This document shows positions 3,192 to 47,961 of a stretch of 64,000 nucleotides of DNA, piece by piece. The stretch covers positions 310,001-374,000 of the forward strand of contig NZ_QGGB01000002.1 of NCBI RefSeq assembly GCF_003150675.1, given 5' to 3'. A model generated the notes under the pieces. The model saw nothing but the letters and a program-made list of their open reading frames with translations. It had not been told where the DNA came from and made no database searches. Each line of letters starts with the position of its first letter. Position 1 is the first letter of the stretch. Both the position numbers and the translations under genes were made by a program. This stretch comes from Rhodohalobacter mucosus (GTDB lineage: Bacteria; Bacteroidota; Rhodothermia; Balneolales; Balneolaceae).

Positions 3192-5633
<2,442 letters not shown>

Positions 5634-5790
5634 ACAAACAGTGGATTAGGTTCAAAGTGATCTCTTGGAATTAACCAAGTTCGACGATCAGGTACAAGTG
5701 GTTTTCAGGGTGCAGGACGGAAAGAGGCCTGTCAGCATTTCCTGTGCCTTTCAGGAATTCTGACAGCGCCGGATTAGGGGCAAGGCGCGT

Positions 5791-5923
5791 GGTTCAGGGT
5801 TCAGGGTTCAGGGTTCAGGGTTCAGGGTTCAGGGTTCAGGGTTCAGGGTTCAGGGTTCAGGGTTCAGGGTTCAGGGTTCAGGGTTCAGGGTTCAGGGTTC
5901 AGGGTTCAGGGTTCAGGGTTCAG
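5791..5923 (+). repeat. Perfect heptanucleotide tandem repeat, 19 copies (GGTTCAG)
   Basis: Exactly 133 bp consisting of 19 uninterrupted copies of GGTTCAG (equivalently TCAGGGT), in the 518-bp gap between the divergent S9D peptidase and the propeller lipoprotein. On the plus strand it has GGG runs spaced by TTCA, the pattern of a G-quadruplex-forming sequence. No spacers are present, so it is not CRISPR. An open frame crosses it only because a 7-bp unit without stops stays open; it is not a gene. A perfect array of this length is expected to vary in copy number between strains by slippage. Confidence 0.97.
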
Positions 5924-5980: not shown

Positions 5981-6080
5981 AATACTCAATACTCAATACT
6001 CAATACTCAATACTCAATACTCAATACTCCCTTCTCCCTTCTCCCTTTTCACTTTTCACTTTTCACTTCTCCATACTCCG
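5981..6080 (+). repeat. Heptad array: seven TCAATAC units followed by drifting CT-rich heptads
   Basis: Positions 5981-6029 are seven perfect copies of AATACTC. After a 2-bp shift the next seven heptads (6032-6080) stay in phase while changing sequence: TTCTCCC twice, TTTTCAC three times, TTCTCCA, TACTCCG. The remainder of the 5634-6151 gap (5634-5790, 5924-5980, 6081-6151) holds no gene that I recognise; it must contain the two divergent promoters, which I cannot locate confidently. Confidence 0.93.
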
Positions 6081-6151
6081 CTTGCAGCTTTTCGCAAATG
6101 GATGTATACTCTCTACGAACTAAATAGTAATTATAAGATTCAAATACCCGA

Positions 6152-7276
6152 ATGAGATCCCCCATATCATATATTATTGTCAGTTTCGTAATCCTGGCAG
6201 GTTGTTCAGGGCAGGAAGAGTCTGCAGAACAGATTACCTACTCCGGGCTTCCTGACCTGCAGGTCAATCAAACTATTGAAGCTGGAGAATCCGGTGAATA
6301 TTTTCCCTCCAGGCTCAACGACTTGTTTGTAGGCCGGGATGGCTCCATCATCGTTTCAGATTGGGGAAGCAATACTCTTGAGCAGTTTTCTCCGGATGGA
6401 GAGCATGTTCAAACCGTCGCCTCTGAGGGAGGTGGTCCGGGAGAACTCCCAAGCTTTTTCTTCATTGCCGATACCGGAAACGACCGATTTATGATTGAAC
6501 ATCAGGGGGCCCGACGGGATCTGTTCATACCGGATGAAAACGGTCTTTATACCTATTCATCCACTGTTTCATCGGATGAGAACAGCGGCTATGGGTACAA
6601 CATCATCGGTAAAAAATCAGACAGCGAATACTATGCGACCCCCAGAAATGTAATCAGAGACGTTCAGAGCCTGATGGTAAACCCCAAAGATTACCGGGAA
6701 GGGCCTGTGGTTCTTATTGATGATTCAGGCGGGCTGATACAGGATTCACTGGAGATGCTGCAAACTCCCCTTCCCCACCTGACGGATGCCGGTAACGGTG
6801 GTTTTCGCGTTGACGTGATTCCATACCGCAATACGGACCGATTTCATCCACTGCCTGATGGCGGCTACCTGCTTGCCAGGCCCGACAACTCGCGCCTGGA
6901 ATTTTACGATATGACTCAAACCCTTCAGAGAGCGATTGAATTGAATGTGGTTCCAAGGGAGATTACACAAGCCGATATGGAATATGCTTTCAGGGATCAC
7001 CGGGATGACGTAATTCGGGATATCAGGCCACGATTGCATGATTTCAAGCCGCCATTCCTAGATATTCTGGCGTCTGAAAACCATCTCTGGCTGCATACCG
7101 ACAACAGTGAAAGCGGTAAGGAGTTTGTTGTTTTGGAGATGGACGGCACACCGGTTGGAAAGTTTCTTCTATCAGAATTTGATGAGGTGAAAAAAGCAGT
7201 TGATAACAGAATCTACACCATTCATAAAAACCCCGATATTGGCCATTCCGTGAGGGTGTATGAAGTGGCAATTTAG
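6152..7276 (+). CDS. 6-bladed beta-propeller lipoprotein
   Basis: A 374-residue lipoprotein. The signal SYIIVSFVILAGCSG has a lipobox with Cys at about residue 18. The body contains NHL/6-bladed-propeller strands, including LNDLFVGRDGSIIVSDWGSNTLEQFSPDGEHV, FHPLPDGGYLLARPDNSRLEFYD and the closing VYEVAI. Proteins of this type are common in Bacteroidota and Balneolota as periplasmic or surface sensors or binding proteins. No catalytic residues are evident. It stands alone, divergent from the S9D peptidase and convergent with YajQ. Ligand unknown. Confidence 0.8.
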   Translation: MRSPISYIIVSFVILAGCSGQEESAEQITYSGLPDLQVNQTIEAGESGEYFPSRLNDLFVGRDGSIIVSDWGSNTLEQFSPDGEHVQTVASEGGGPGELPSFFFIADTGNDRFMIEHQGARRDLFIPDENGLYTYSSTVSSDENSGYGYNIIGKKSDSEYYATPRNVIRDVQSLMVNPKDYREGPVVLIDDSGGLIQDSLEMLQTPLPHLTDAGNGGFRVDVIPYRNTDRFHPLPDGGYLLARPDNSRLEFYDMTQTLQRAIELNVVPREITQADMEYAFRDHRDDVIRDIRPRLHDFKPPFLDILASENHLWLHTDNSESGKEFVVLEMDGTPVGKFLLSEFDEVKKAVDNRIYTIHKNPDIGHSVRVYEVAI

Positions 7277-7317: not shown

Positions 7318-7413
7318 GACATGGTATGTCTGTCAATAAAGGTATGACGATCTGATTCGCATCAGAATAGGGCGGGAGAATTAAACTCACAACCATAACA
7401 GACATACCATGTC
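7318..7413. repeat. 96-bp element bounded by perfect 16-bp inverted repeats
   Basis: GACATGGTATGTCTGT at 7318-7333 is the exact reverse complement of 7398-7413, with a 64-bp loop. Each arm also contains its own GACAT...ATGTC palindrome. It lies between the propeller gene and the hexamer repeat. It could be a long-loop hairpin, a paired operator, or a tiny MITE-like element; there is no transposase and no clear target-site duplication. Confidence 0.75.
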
Positions 7414-7430
7414 TGCGGTTAGTGCAGGGT

Positions 7431-7472
7431 GCAGGTGCAGGTGCAGGTGCAGGTGCAGGTGCAGGTGCAGGT
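7431..7472 (+). repeat. Hexanucleotide tandem repeat, seven copies of GCAGGT
   Basis: Seven perfect GCAGGT units, preceded by an imperfect GCAGGGT. This is the one homogeneous tandem repeat in the window with a 6-bp rather than a 7-bp period, and neither strand fits the TC-anchored pattern. It lies in the 379-bp gap 7277-7655, which otherwise contains the inverted repeat and the heptad array. Confidence 0.95.
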
Positions 7473-7500: not shown

Positions 7501-7643
7501 TCAGCGCTCAGCGGTCAGCAAGGACAGGGTATAATTTTCATATTCAATACCCAATACCCAATACCCAATACTCAATACTCAATACTCAATACTCAAAAAG
7601 AAGATACTTCAGAGATCAAATATCGCATATCACTATTCTGAGA
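7501..7643 (+). repeat. TC-anchored heptad array with a TCAATAC/CCAATAC block
   Basis: There are three blocks. TCAGCGC, TCAGCGG and TCAGCAA run from 7501 to 7521. Seven CAATAC(C/T) units run from 7545 to 7593, the same unit as at 5981. Five consecutive TC heptads (TCAGAGA, TCAAATA, TCGCATA, TCACTAT, TCTGAGA) run from 7609 to 7643. The array ends 12 bp before the 3' end of the minus-strand yajQ gene. Confidence 0.85.
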
Positions 7644-10575: not shown

Positions 10576-13002
10576 ATGAAAGTATTTCTTTCGCTGTATT
10601 TAGTTGTCGGGCTGACATGTCTTGCACATTCACAAACCATTACCGTAACAGATCAAAAAACGGGAGAGCCTCTGGAAGGCGTGGTGCTGATGAGTGTACG
10701 TTCAGAGGCAGCCCTCATCACCGATGCGCGAGGTGAGGCAGATATTTCTTCTTTAGAAGGGGCAGAAACCATTCTGATACGGTCTTTGGGATATAAAACG
10801 AGGACCCTCAGCTTTGGTCAAATCGAAGATATGAATTACGAGGTTGCCCTGGAACCGTCCATTTTGAACCTGGATCAGCTGGTGGTTTCAGCCACAAGAT
10901 GGCGTCAGACTTCAGGAAATATACCCCTGAAAATTGTTTCTGTTACACCGGAAGAGCTGACTCTCCAGAATCCGCAGACAGCCGCTGATTTATTGAATGT
11001 TACCGGAAAGGTATTCATTCAAAAGAGTCAGCAGGGAGGCGGGAGCCCCATGATACGCGGGTTTGCCACCAACAGGCTCATCTATACAATAGACGGTGTG
11101 CGAATGAATACGGCAATTTTCAGAGGGGGCAATATCCAGAATGTGATCAATCTTGATCCGTTTGCCATCGAAAATACCGAGGTGCTTTTTGGCCCGGGTT
11201 CGGTCATTTACGGCAGCGACGCAATCGGCGGGGTAATGAGCTTTCAAACACTGACTCCGCGGCTTTCGCCTGATGATGAACTGCTCTTGACCGGAAAAGC
11301 GGAAACACGATTTTCTTCTGCCAACAACGAGCGTACCGGGCATTTCGATGTGAGTATCGGCCGGAAAAAGTGGGCTGCGGTAACAAGTTTCTCTTCGTGG
11401 GATTATGACCATTTGAGGCAGGGCAGCCATGGCCCCGATGATTACCTCAAGGGGTTCTATCCGCAGCGGCAGGACAGCCTTGACGTGCTGATTGTTCAGG
11501 ATGACCCCCTTTTACAGATTCCCACAGCCTACTCTCAAATCAACCTGATGCAGAAAGCACGGTATAAACCCAACGAAACCTGGGATTTTCAGTATGGGTT
11601 TCATTTTTCTGAAACATCCTCCTACGGACGATACGACCGGCATCAGAGGATCAGAGAAGGAACTGCACGATACGGTGAATGGAAGTACGGCCCGCAGAAA
11701 TGGCTGATGAATAATTTATCCGGGCGGTATACGCAAAGCAATGCAATTTTCGATCAGCTCTCTCTGAGAGTGGCCCATCAATCATTTGAAGAGAGCAGGA
11801 TCAGCCGCAACTTCAATGACGATACCCGTCAAAGACGAATTGAAAATGTAGAAGCCTACTCTGCAAATCTTGATTTCACCAAAAATACCGGCACCAGAAA
11901 CACGATCTATTACGGGATAGAGTATATTTTGAATGACGTGACGTCAATAGGCCGGAATGAGTTCATTTTTGACAGCGTAATAAAACCCGATTCCATAAGC
12001 AGCGGACCCAGCCGGTATCCGCTGTCAACATGGGAATCCCTGGCCGCTTATGCGAATACAGAGTACAGGCTTTCAAGTCGAATTACATTCCAGGGAGGCC
12101 TCCGGTATAACCGGTTCATGCTGGAATCAGATTTCAGCAACAACGCAGACTTTTATCCTTTCCCATTCAGAACTGCAGAAATAAATAACGGTGCTCTTAC
12201 CGGCAGCATTGGAGCTGTTTACAAACCCGATGAACGTTGGGTCATCAGGGCAAATGCAGGCACTGCTTTCCGTTCGCCCAACGTGGACGATGTCGGTAAA
12301 GTGTTTGATTCCGAGCAGGGTACGGTTGTGGTGCCCAACCCCGGTCTTGAAGCAGAATATGCCTACAGTTTCGATCTGGGAATCGCAAAAGCTTTCAGGG
12401 GCCGTGCAAAACTGGACGTTACGGGGTATTACACCATTCTGGACAATGCAATGGTACGCAGGGATTTTGAAATAAACGGGCAGGACAGCATCCAGTACGA
12501 TGGTGTTCTAAGCCGGGTGCAGGCTCTCCAGAACGCCGCTGTAGCAAGGGTGTATGGTGTTCAGGCAGGAGTAGAAGTCAGGCTGTATGACGGATTCAAC
12601 TTCCTTTCGGATGTGAACTACCAGTCGGGTGAAGAGGAACTGGATGATGGCAGCATCAGCCCATCGCGTCACGCGGCGCCCCTCTTTGGTATGAGCAGAT
12701 TGAGATACGAACGAAACGGCCTGATGCTTGAACTCAACACGATCTATCAGGGTAAACGGGCTCACGAAGATCTTGCCGTCAGCGAAAAAGGAAAGGAGGA
12801 AATCTATGCACTGGATGAAAACGGAAATACCTACTCCCCGGCCTGGTACACGCTTAATTTCAAATCCATGTACCGGCTTTCGGAAACATTCAGCATGAGT
12901 GCGGGAATAGAAAACATGACCGACCGCAGATACCGTCCCTACAGTTCGGGTTTATCTGGCCCCGGCAGGAATTTTGTTCTTTCGTTGAGGGCGGAGTTTT
13001 AA
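10576..13002 (+). CDS. TonB-dependent outer-membrane receptor (heme/hemoglobin receptor-like)
   Basis: An 808-residue receptor. The signal peptide is MKVFLSLYLVVGLTCLAHSQ; starting at 10576 rather than the upstream in-frame ATG at 10537 gives a clean signal. A CarboxypepD_reg-like domain (about 20-95, ITVTDQKTGEPLEGVVLMS) precedes the plug (about 110-230, with LVVSATRW and IYGSDAIGGVMSF). A 22-strand-type barrel follows, ending in the aromatic signature VLSLRAEF. The plug motif RGFATNRLIYTIDGVRMN ... FRGGNIQN is typical of receptors annotated as heme or hemoglobin-type, so iron or heme uptake is a reasonable but unproven substrate. It is energised by TonB-ExbBD, which is not in the window. 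Confidence 0.9.
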   Translation: MKVFLSLYLVVGLTCLAHSQTITVTDQKTGEPLEGVVLMSVRSEAALITDARGEADISSLEGAETILIRSLGYKTRTLSFGQIEDMNYEVALEPSILNLDQLVVSATRWRQTSGNIPLKIVSVTPEELTLQNPQTAADLLNVTGKVFIQKSQQGGGSPMIRGFATNRLIYTIDGVRMNTAIFRGGNIQNVINLDPFAIENTEVLFGPGSVIYGSDAIGGVMSFQTLTPRLSPDDELLLTGKAETRFSSANNERTGHFDVSIGRKKWAAVTSFSSWDYDHLRQGSHGPDDYLKGFYPQRQDSLDVLIVQDDPLLQIPTAYSQINLMQKARYKPNETWDFQYGFHFSETSSYGRYDRHQRIREGTARYGEWKYGPQKWLMNNLSGRYTQSNAIFDQLSLRVAHQSFEESRISRNFNDDTRQRRIENVEAYSANLDFTKNTGTRNTIYYGIEYILNDVTSIGRNEFIFDSVIKPDSISSGPSRYPLSTWESLAAYANTEYRLSSRITFQGGLRYNRFMLESDFSNNADFYPFPFRTAEINNGALTGSIGAVYKPDERWVIRANAGTAFRSPNVDDVGKVFDSEQGTVVVPNPGLEAEYAYSFDLGIAKAFRGRAKLDVTGYYTILDNAMVRRDFEINGQDSIQYDGVLSRVQALQNAAVARVYGVQAGVEVRLYDGFNFLSDVNYQSGEEELDDGSISPSRHAAPLFGMSRLRYERNGLMLELNTIYQGKRAHEDLAVSEKGKEEIYALDENGNTYSPAWYTLNFKSMYRLSETFSMSAGIENMTDRRYRPYSSGLSGPGRNFVLSLRAEF

Positions 13003-19537: not shown

Positions 19538-20743
<1,206 letters not shown>

Positions 20744-47855: not shown

Positions 47856-47894
47856 CAAGCTCCAAGCTCCAAGCTCCAAGCTCCAAGCTCCAAG
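47856..47894 (+). repeat. TCCAAGC heptad tandem repeat, about 5.5 copies
   Basis: 39 bp of perfect TCCAAGC units begin directly after the stop codon of the P1 peptidase gene. This starts the 387-bp gap 47855-48241, which also holds a palindrome, a longer heptad array and a hairpin. Confidence 0.95.
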
Positions 47895-47961
47895 GATGAA
47901 AACAGATCCAATGCTTGTTGTCTAGAGATTAAATTAGAGTCCGAAGGACGACACAGGCGAG

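Follow-up and report, generated by a model that had tools for sequence, protein, structure and literature searches.

The window, the whole stretch of 64,000 nucleotides analysed here (G000:C2:310001-374000), comes from a 97% complete draft of the 3.9-Mb Rhodohalobacter mucosus genome in 17 contigs. Near its left end, genes for an S9 family peptidase and a lipoprotein-like protein diverge, and a GGGTTCA array lies between them (Table 1). Tandem Repeats Finder described the array as 133 bp of period 7 with 19.0 copies, a 100% match and 0 indels, and the exact run was confirmed. GGGTTCA is present in 18 exact units, with as many GGG tracts, the nineteenth copy being divided between the array ends (GGTTCA on the left, G on the right). 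The nineteen-copy perfect heptamer repeat of an earlier, sequence-only reading is therefore borne out, as 19.0 copies by period and 18 exact units. Its placement of the array between divergent genes also held; its description of the lipoprotein as a propeller protein was not confirmed, no Pfam family having matched. That reading had overlooked a second heptamer tract in the same intergenic region, which grades into degenerate units ending beside the -35 element of the predicted lipoprotein promoter, and had likewise missed that such arrays recur at many places in the genome. The right flank of a further tract, beyond the lipoprotein gene, is found again at other AATACTC arrays. An imperfect hairpin stands 24 bp left of the GGGTTCA array and had no further copy in the examined third of the genome. 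Within the array itself, duplex-type pairing prediction, which says nothing on quadruplexes, found no hairpin.

Table 1 Features of the window (positions numbered from its first nucleotide)
Feature	Position	Strand	Remarks
S9 family prolyl-oligopeptidase-type peptidase	3192-5633	-	Start at 5633
Candidate S9 peptidase core promoter, TTGTAC-17-TTAATT	5669-5697	-	Same layout in L057
Imperfect hairpin	5729-5766		Left of the GGGTTCA array
(GGGTTCA) array	5791-5923	+	G-rich strand is the plus strand, here the negative-GC-skew strand
Second heptamer tract: AATACTC x7, then CTCCCTT x3, CTTTTCA x3.4	5981-6072	+
Predicted lipoprotein core promoter, TTGCAG-17-TATACT	6082-6110	+	Cross-locus comparison
Lipoprotein-like protein	6152-7276	+	Pfam search negative at E<=0.001; L057 and L058 have orthologues in conserved gene order
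AATACCC/AATACTC heptamer tract	7545-7596	+	Between the lipoprotein and YajQ (DUF520) genes
CAAGCTC x5.6 array	47856-47894	+	34-bp partial copy of dispersed intergenic element E2 after it, at 47938

Relatives identified through the window's S9 peptidase were six Balneolaceae MAGs (75–78% identity), and loci L057 (MAG CSBr16_177) and L058 (coassembly_bin.34) preserve the arrangement of YajQ, then lipoprotein, then an S9 peptidase gene in divergent orientation. Measured from aligned start codons, the intergenic region is 518 bp long in the window versus 199 bp in L057 and 243 bp in L058, and neither heptamer array is present in either of the shorter regions. Conservation of the array's position across relatives was accordingly rejected, the array being absent at two orthologous loci.

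Both core promoters were identified by comparing loci and are predicted, not mapped. A predicted TTGCA(A/G)-17-TATA(C/A)T element recurs at the equivalent place in the window, L057, L058 and L067; the layout of the candidate peptidase promoter was not found in L058. A sigma-70 scan returned one unrelated minus-strand match, not above shuffles. The array lies between the two predicted core promoters, outside both and outside open reading frames, 93 bp from the candidate peptidase -35 element and 158 bp from that of the lipoprotein. Judged by these predicted promoters, it does not occupy the position of the repeat at a phase-variable locus, which is in the reading frame or among core promoter elements, as between -35 and -10. 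Among the ten GGGTTCA array rows of the genome, gene pairs are divergent at two, co-directional at five and convergent at three, two of the convergent rows being one place on C10.

Together, the flanking predicted promoters, the two orthologous loci without the array and the 2/10 share of divergent rows count against the phase-variation-like effect of copy number suggested by the sequence-only reading. A switch of promoter spacing by the GGGTTCA array is not supported by the predicted layout, and any effect of the array on its two neighbours is probably minor. As an explanation of the array, a phase-variable or rheostat promoter element whose copy number alters expression of both peptidase and lipoprotein draws on its position between divergent genes at 93 and 158 bp from their -35 elements and on Helicobacter pylori, where promoter-proximal repeat length can tune expression (PMC4081817). 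We consider it quite unlikely, since the predicted core promoters are external to the array and are found again at array-free loci, and since eight of the ten sister rows stand between co-directional or convergent genes.

Arrays of at least three GGGTTCA units are found at three places on C2, two on C3, one each on C4 and C10, and two on C12 (1.3 kb apart), giving eight clusters when places less than 10 kb apart are joined. Other words are similarly dispersed: AATACTC x3 at 11 places, GCCTTTT x3 at 10, and CCATCGT x3 and ACAGGCT x3 at 7 each. We counted perfect runs (at least 12 lag matches) by period. In 606 kb not picked for arrays there were 19 runs of period 7, with 2, 5 and 2 of periods 6, 8 and 9 and 6 of period 14. 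A 986-kb sample, in which no stretch had been selected on either main motif but two (L181, L188) were placed on CCATCGT matches, gave 37 runs of period 7, 3, 6 and 3 of periods 6, 8 and 9, and 9 of period 14. One second-order Markov copy of the 606-kb sample contained 0 period-7 runs against the 19 observed, which excludes chance. By a purpose-written simple gene caller, 18 of these 19 runs are intergenic in a sample that is 83% coding. With tandem units of 7 bp, an intergenic excess of period 7 and dispersed words, the arrays belong with the intergenic heptanucleotide simple sequence repeats (STRR/LSSR type), and the GGGTTCA array is one of many members of this known class. Loss of mismatch repair as the source of heptamer abundance was rejected, MutS being present with an 899-residue open frame. 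A reverse-transcriptase-templated or telomerase-like repeat was also rejected, because RVT_1 (PF00078) had no match in the genome (97% complete). Rfam searches of L037, L165 and L036 matched tmRNA only.

Arrays of this kind have been described elsewhere, and we cite those accounts for the passages that bear on ours. The Xanthomonas GGGAATC and Nostoc PCC 7120 GGGGA(C/T)T heptamers (PMC4692102) are likewise seven-base G-rich words, dispersed and mostly intergenic, in 2 to 26 units, and the Xanthomonas word shares with GGGTTCA its three-G tracts and four-base spacers. They differ in a preference for four units; here the words are numerous and unrelated, the arrays are long, a strand rule applies (below) and the two orthologous loci are free of the array. 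TAACTGA and mixed heptamers are reported from Beggiatoaceae, Cyanobacteria and five Bacteroidetes (PMC4679880). That system resembles ours in being intergenic, in mixing with other heptamers in Microcystis and some Bacteroidetes, in the great length of some arrays, and in having close relatives that share the genes but lack the repeats; 7-nt indels distinguish two Cyanothece strains (PMC4679880). It differs in that one word was studied, which in Beggiatoaceae often lies just upstream of a start codon. As relayed in PMC4692102 and PMC4679880, Mrazek and colleagues (2007) found heptanucleotides to be the most abundant class of long simple sequence repeat in most genomes surveyed, an excess that our genome shares, and slippage tied to the polymerase footprint was proposed for these repeats; the passages cited give no strand rule of the kind found here. 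PMC4692102 likewise takes a polymerase-footprint hypothesis for period 7 from others. In the relevant passages of both papers, the period-7 excess, traced to the 2007 survey, and the spread of one word to many places are left open.

Folding of the GGGTTCA array as a G-quadruplex is plausible. Its 18 GGG tracts are regularly spaced, where the G-quadruplex heptamer class has at least four, and quadruplex potential is a fair reading by analogy because the related (GGGAATC)3GGG forms a quadruplex in vitro, melting at 50.4 C in K+ (passage in PMC4692102).

We then considered the orientation of the arrays. Replication strand was assigned by GC skew and third-codon-position skew, separately for genes of both strands. 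Skew signs are mostly consistent along whole contigs; C4 is weak, C8 is mixed and C3 switches sign near 340 kb. The test omits all of C8 and C14, the part of C3 past 330 kb and the first 40 kb of C9, where skew is weak, mixed or unmeasurable on both gene strands; three CCATCGT arrays in the omitted part of C9 are therefore uncounted, and the skew of that stretch (-0.027) would put them on the predicted strand. Thirteen stretches (seven plus six) had been selected for GGGTTCA or AATACTC arrays, orientation being no part of the choice. In bacteria, the negative-GC-skew strand is conventionally taken to be the one synthesised as the lagging strand.

Across 17 motif families, 58 of 68 clusters face their family's majority orientation relative to the skew strand (null 46.4, p<5e-5). 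Flipping whole sites (arrays less than 10 kb apart) together gave p 0.0001, and 0.00025 on a repeat run. The result holds at p<=0.0045 with any one of ten contigs dropped, stands at 56/65 without weak-skew C4, and persists without GGGTTCA and AATACTC (41/49, null 34.5, p 0.004). GGGTTCA is uniform, all eight clusters having its G-rich form on the strand of negative GC skew; the counts are 9/11 for AATACTC, 8/9 for GCCTTTT, 6/7 for ACAGGCT and 4/5 for CCATCGT. The eight families with at least three clusters give 43/50. Six of the nine two-cluster families agree (chance 4.5) and three are split; AAGGCAG, AATCATC and AGCTATC divide evenly. Orientation showed no bias relative to the strand of the nearest gene (41/63, null 43.7, p 0.90) or to the contig strand (46/72, null 48.8, p 0.90). 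The ten exceptions among the 68 clusters include two long arrays on the other strand, one of 17 GCCTTTT copies (C7:78164) and one of 18 CCATCGT copies (C10:238667). Motifs without G-runs follow the rule as well, so a quadruplex cannot be its general cause. The Xanthomonas heptamers, by comparison, had no leading or lagging preference in two genomes according to the passages cited from PMC4692102, unlike the 8/8 clusters of GGGTTCA on the negative-skew strand.

The bias sharpens with copy number. Over six families, the intergenic share on the predicted strand is 608/1086 (0.56) for matches of 7–11 bp, 38/50 (0.76) at 1.7–2.5 copies, 21/25 (0.84) at 2.6–4.9 copies and 19/20 (0.95) at five or more, in a count of single arrays rather than clusters, for families chosen from the arrays themselves. 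These counts omit pattern matches beyond the stretches analysed, namely the predicted-strand matches at C1:30627, C12:46032, C2:148654, C5:167891 and C6:97810 and the contrary match at C7:78164. GGGTTCA alone goes from 100/200 at 7–11 bp to 10/10 at 2.6 copies or more. The arrays themselves served to define the predicted strand, so the shares of the long classes are partly high by construction; the informative points are the null-corrected 58/68 test, the 1.7–2.5-copy class, too short to pass the array cut-off, and the singles, which split almost evenly. A strand rule that depends on length would be unexpected to a specialist, and it rests on one draft genome and on skew-based strand assignment. 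That it sharpens with copy number argues against each array being a regulatory switch of its adjacent genes.

Part of the bias is background, because intergenic singles lean the same way: a rotation-by-rotation count leans with the arrays in all six families (GGGTTCA 159 to 130). It could thus be argued that strand-biased intergenic composition favours certain words on one strand and that the arrays, like the 608/1086 short matches, merely mirror it. We regard such an artefact as highly improbable, since the array bias is far larger than the singles allow: under a stricter null built from the intergenic singles' own lean, 38 of 43 clusters agree against 25.9 expected (p 2e-5). GGGTTCA is moreover a G-rich word on the C-rich strand, and its singles, counted once per run, divide 100 to 100.

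KOPS are strand-biased short words of bacteria. Selection might similarly hold heptamers in one orientation as directional binding sites for proteins of chromosome segregation, repair or the fork, and short words of this type (AIMS) are known in bacteria (PMC5993296). One bound word would not be expected to behave as these do, however: the majority orientation is found in 14 of 17 families (six of the 14 resting on two clusters) comprising many different words, and intergenic single GGGTTCA shows the even split just given. Orientation by selection is therefore very improbable in our judgement.

The strand rule suggests instead that slippage during replication acts unequally on the two strands and so lengthens seeds of one orientation. 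On balance we favour the reading that the array grew in place from a seed of one or two units by slippage, expanding only, or mainly, in one fork orientation. A loop or quadruplex forming in the nascent lagging strand would lead to units being added, and the same structure in the lagging-strand template would lead to units being removed. With loss in one orientation and gain in the other, one orientation would persist. We infer both slippage as the cause and the identity of the looping strand.

Paralogous flanks within the genome are relevant to growth from seeds. The two C12 arrays have about 65 bp of left flank in common with copies on C7, C10 and C4. The C7 copy (L165) reads GACCAAGGGGTTCAGGC, with one unit, and the C12 copy (L037) reads GACCAAGGGGTTC followed by 16 units, so that L165 is an unexpanded paralogue with a single GGGGTTCAGG where L037 carries 16 units. 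Related words without GGGTTCA expansion are present in L036, the first C10 copy, and in L035, the C4 copy; the L036 flank runs into a GCCTTTT-type tract. Farther along the element, L037 has CTACAGG x11 (11559-11635) versus about nine copies of a CTACAGGG octamer in L165 (about 19625-19800). Homologous seeds thus seem to have expanded independently, by steps of 7 bases in one copy and of 8 in the other. These comparisons are few and made within one genome, and the pair of C12 arrays may have arisen by local duplication.

The main rival to growth in place is dispersal, in which IS200/RAYT-type HUH transposases would move heptamer cassettes as single-stranded DNA into the lagging-strand template and so set their orientation. 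IS608 and ISDra2 do insert into the lagging-strand template (passage in PMC6006769), and Y1_Tnp genes, both IS200-like and RAYT-like, are present here, with six strong and three weak matches. Five of the proteins were tested: two score above the cut-off for IS200 and one above that for RAYT, while the remaining two resemble RAYT proteins without reaching its cut-off. Array flanks also share dispersed elements. In a third of the genome, and with the query copies included, E1 has seven copies (6 N, 1 P) and E2 has 11 (8 N, 3 P), 18/18 of them intergenic; and, by eye, 6 of 15 AATACTC arrays have their right flank in common. A REP/RAYT element would be a dispersed palindrome flanking a Y1 transposase gene; 22 bp of E2 occur close to one IS200-like gene, and the hairpin left of the GGGTTCA array had no second copy in this third of the genome. 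In L223 and L222, RAYT-like Y1 transposase genes have similar repeated, partly palindromic stretches on both sides and appear REPtron-like by eye.

Polarity of the shared repeats bears on the choice. Among pairs of array-holding segments, 38/55 have co-polar flanks (null 27.4, p 0.012), as dispersal would also predict. Repeats shared by intergenic segments without arrays have no polarity, with 55/107 pairs co-polar against a null of 53.5. Pairs in which either segment has an array give 72/129 (null 64.5, p 0.13), and all segment pairs 127/236 (null 118.1, p 0.15). As array-free shared repeats are non-polar and array-holding pairs are polar, the asymmetry is placed in array growth or retention, and polarity seems to belong to array growth rather than to dispersal in general. 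Single heptamers, moreover, lean weakly, and E1 and E2 as transposase substrates are hypothetical. We therefore think that strand-specific dispersal is unlikely to have set the orientation. The REP/RAYT/IS200 systems described in parts of PMC8266576 and PMC6006769 are similar in having dispersed intergenic pieces near arrays together with Y1 transposases, and dissimilar in that array-free repeats here are non-polar and a tie between E1/E2 and a transposase is hypothetical.

To survey for similar arrays in other genomes, we searched for the two main words. (GGGTTCA)3 occurs in 8 and (AATACTC)3 in 3 of 58 relatives, and (GGGTTCA)4 in 4 of 394 genomes of the phylum, the source genome being included in each count; many of the relatives are fragmented MAGs, which may lose repeats. 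Period-7 runs in stretches sampled from relatives numbered 0 in 140 kb of G011 (a further stretch, selected for its array, being left out), 1 in 160 kb of G023 and 2 in 20 kb of G022, with 0 in the remaining sampled stretches. GGGTTCA and AATACTC arrays in relatives are mostly on short contigs. Of 17 pieces of other species considered for orientation, nine were without sign. Seven could be given a sign by eye: five agree with the strand rule (G051 twice, G025, and soft calls in G420 and in G011, the last beside a skew switch) and two, both in G291, disagree. G138, a distant genome of the phylum, has two GGGTTCA arrays, one each way; they lie 0.7 kb apart (L179 9199-9233 and 9967-10001), contrary to the rule. 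In the same-genus genome G011, a 10-unit AATACTC array (L167 9449-9518; G011:C1:885449) stands near a GC-skew switch, and is perhaps close to the origin or terminus.

Intergenic heptamer arrays being already known, our data suggest that what is new is a strand orientation that rises with copy number, in one draft genome. Titles and abstract openings on repeat strand rules, or on Bacteroidetes or Balneola heptamers, contained no replication-strand rule for heptamer arrays, a weak negative with the subscription literature mostly uncovered. Eight Microcystis repeat sets all have one chromosomal orientation, for which the passages of PMC4679880 concerned leave the explanation open, replication strand being outside that study. 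A rule that is sharper in arrays of more copies implicates the replication fork as the site where arrays are made, and provides a simple test in any closed heptamer-rich genome. More tentatively, and with less confidence than we attach to growth in place, bacterial heptamer arrays may in general be fossils of strand-specific slippage, a seed turning into an array only where its word has one particular orientation to the fork, their genome-wide orientation and length recording the looping strand and the step of about 7 nt being set by the replisome. If so, the old puzzle of the bacterial preference for period 7 becomes a test of fork geometry.

The window contains further repeats. A TCATCGTCG-type tandem repeat at 19541-19621 has periods of 6, 9, 12 and 24 and is not a heptamer. 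Between the lipoprotein and YajQ genes there is a perfect 16-bp inverted repeat (7318-7333 / 7398-7413), 17–19 bp of which recur near a heptamer array in L109 and also in L184. A hexamer array, GGTGCA x7.5, follows at 7428-7472 with GTGCAGGGTGCAGG immediately before it, and it has the appearance of a GGGTGCA heptamer whose expansion came after the loss of one G.
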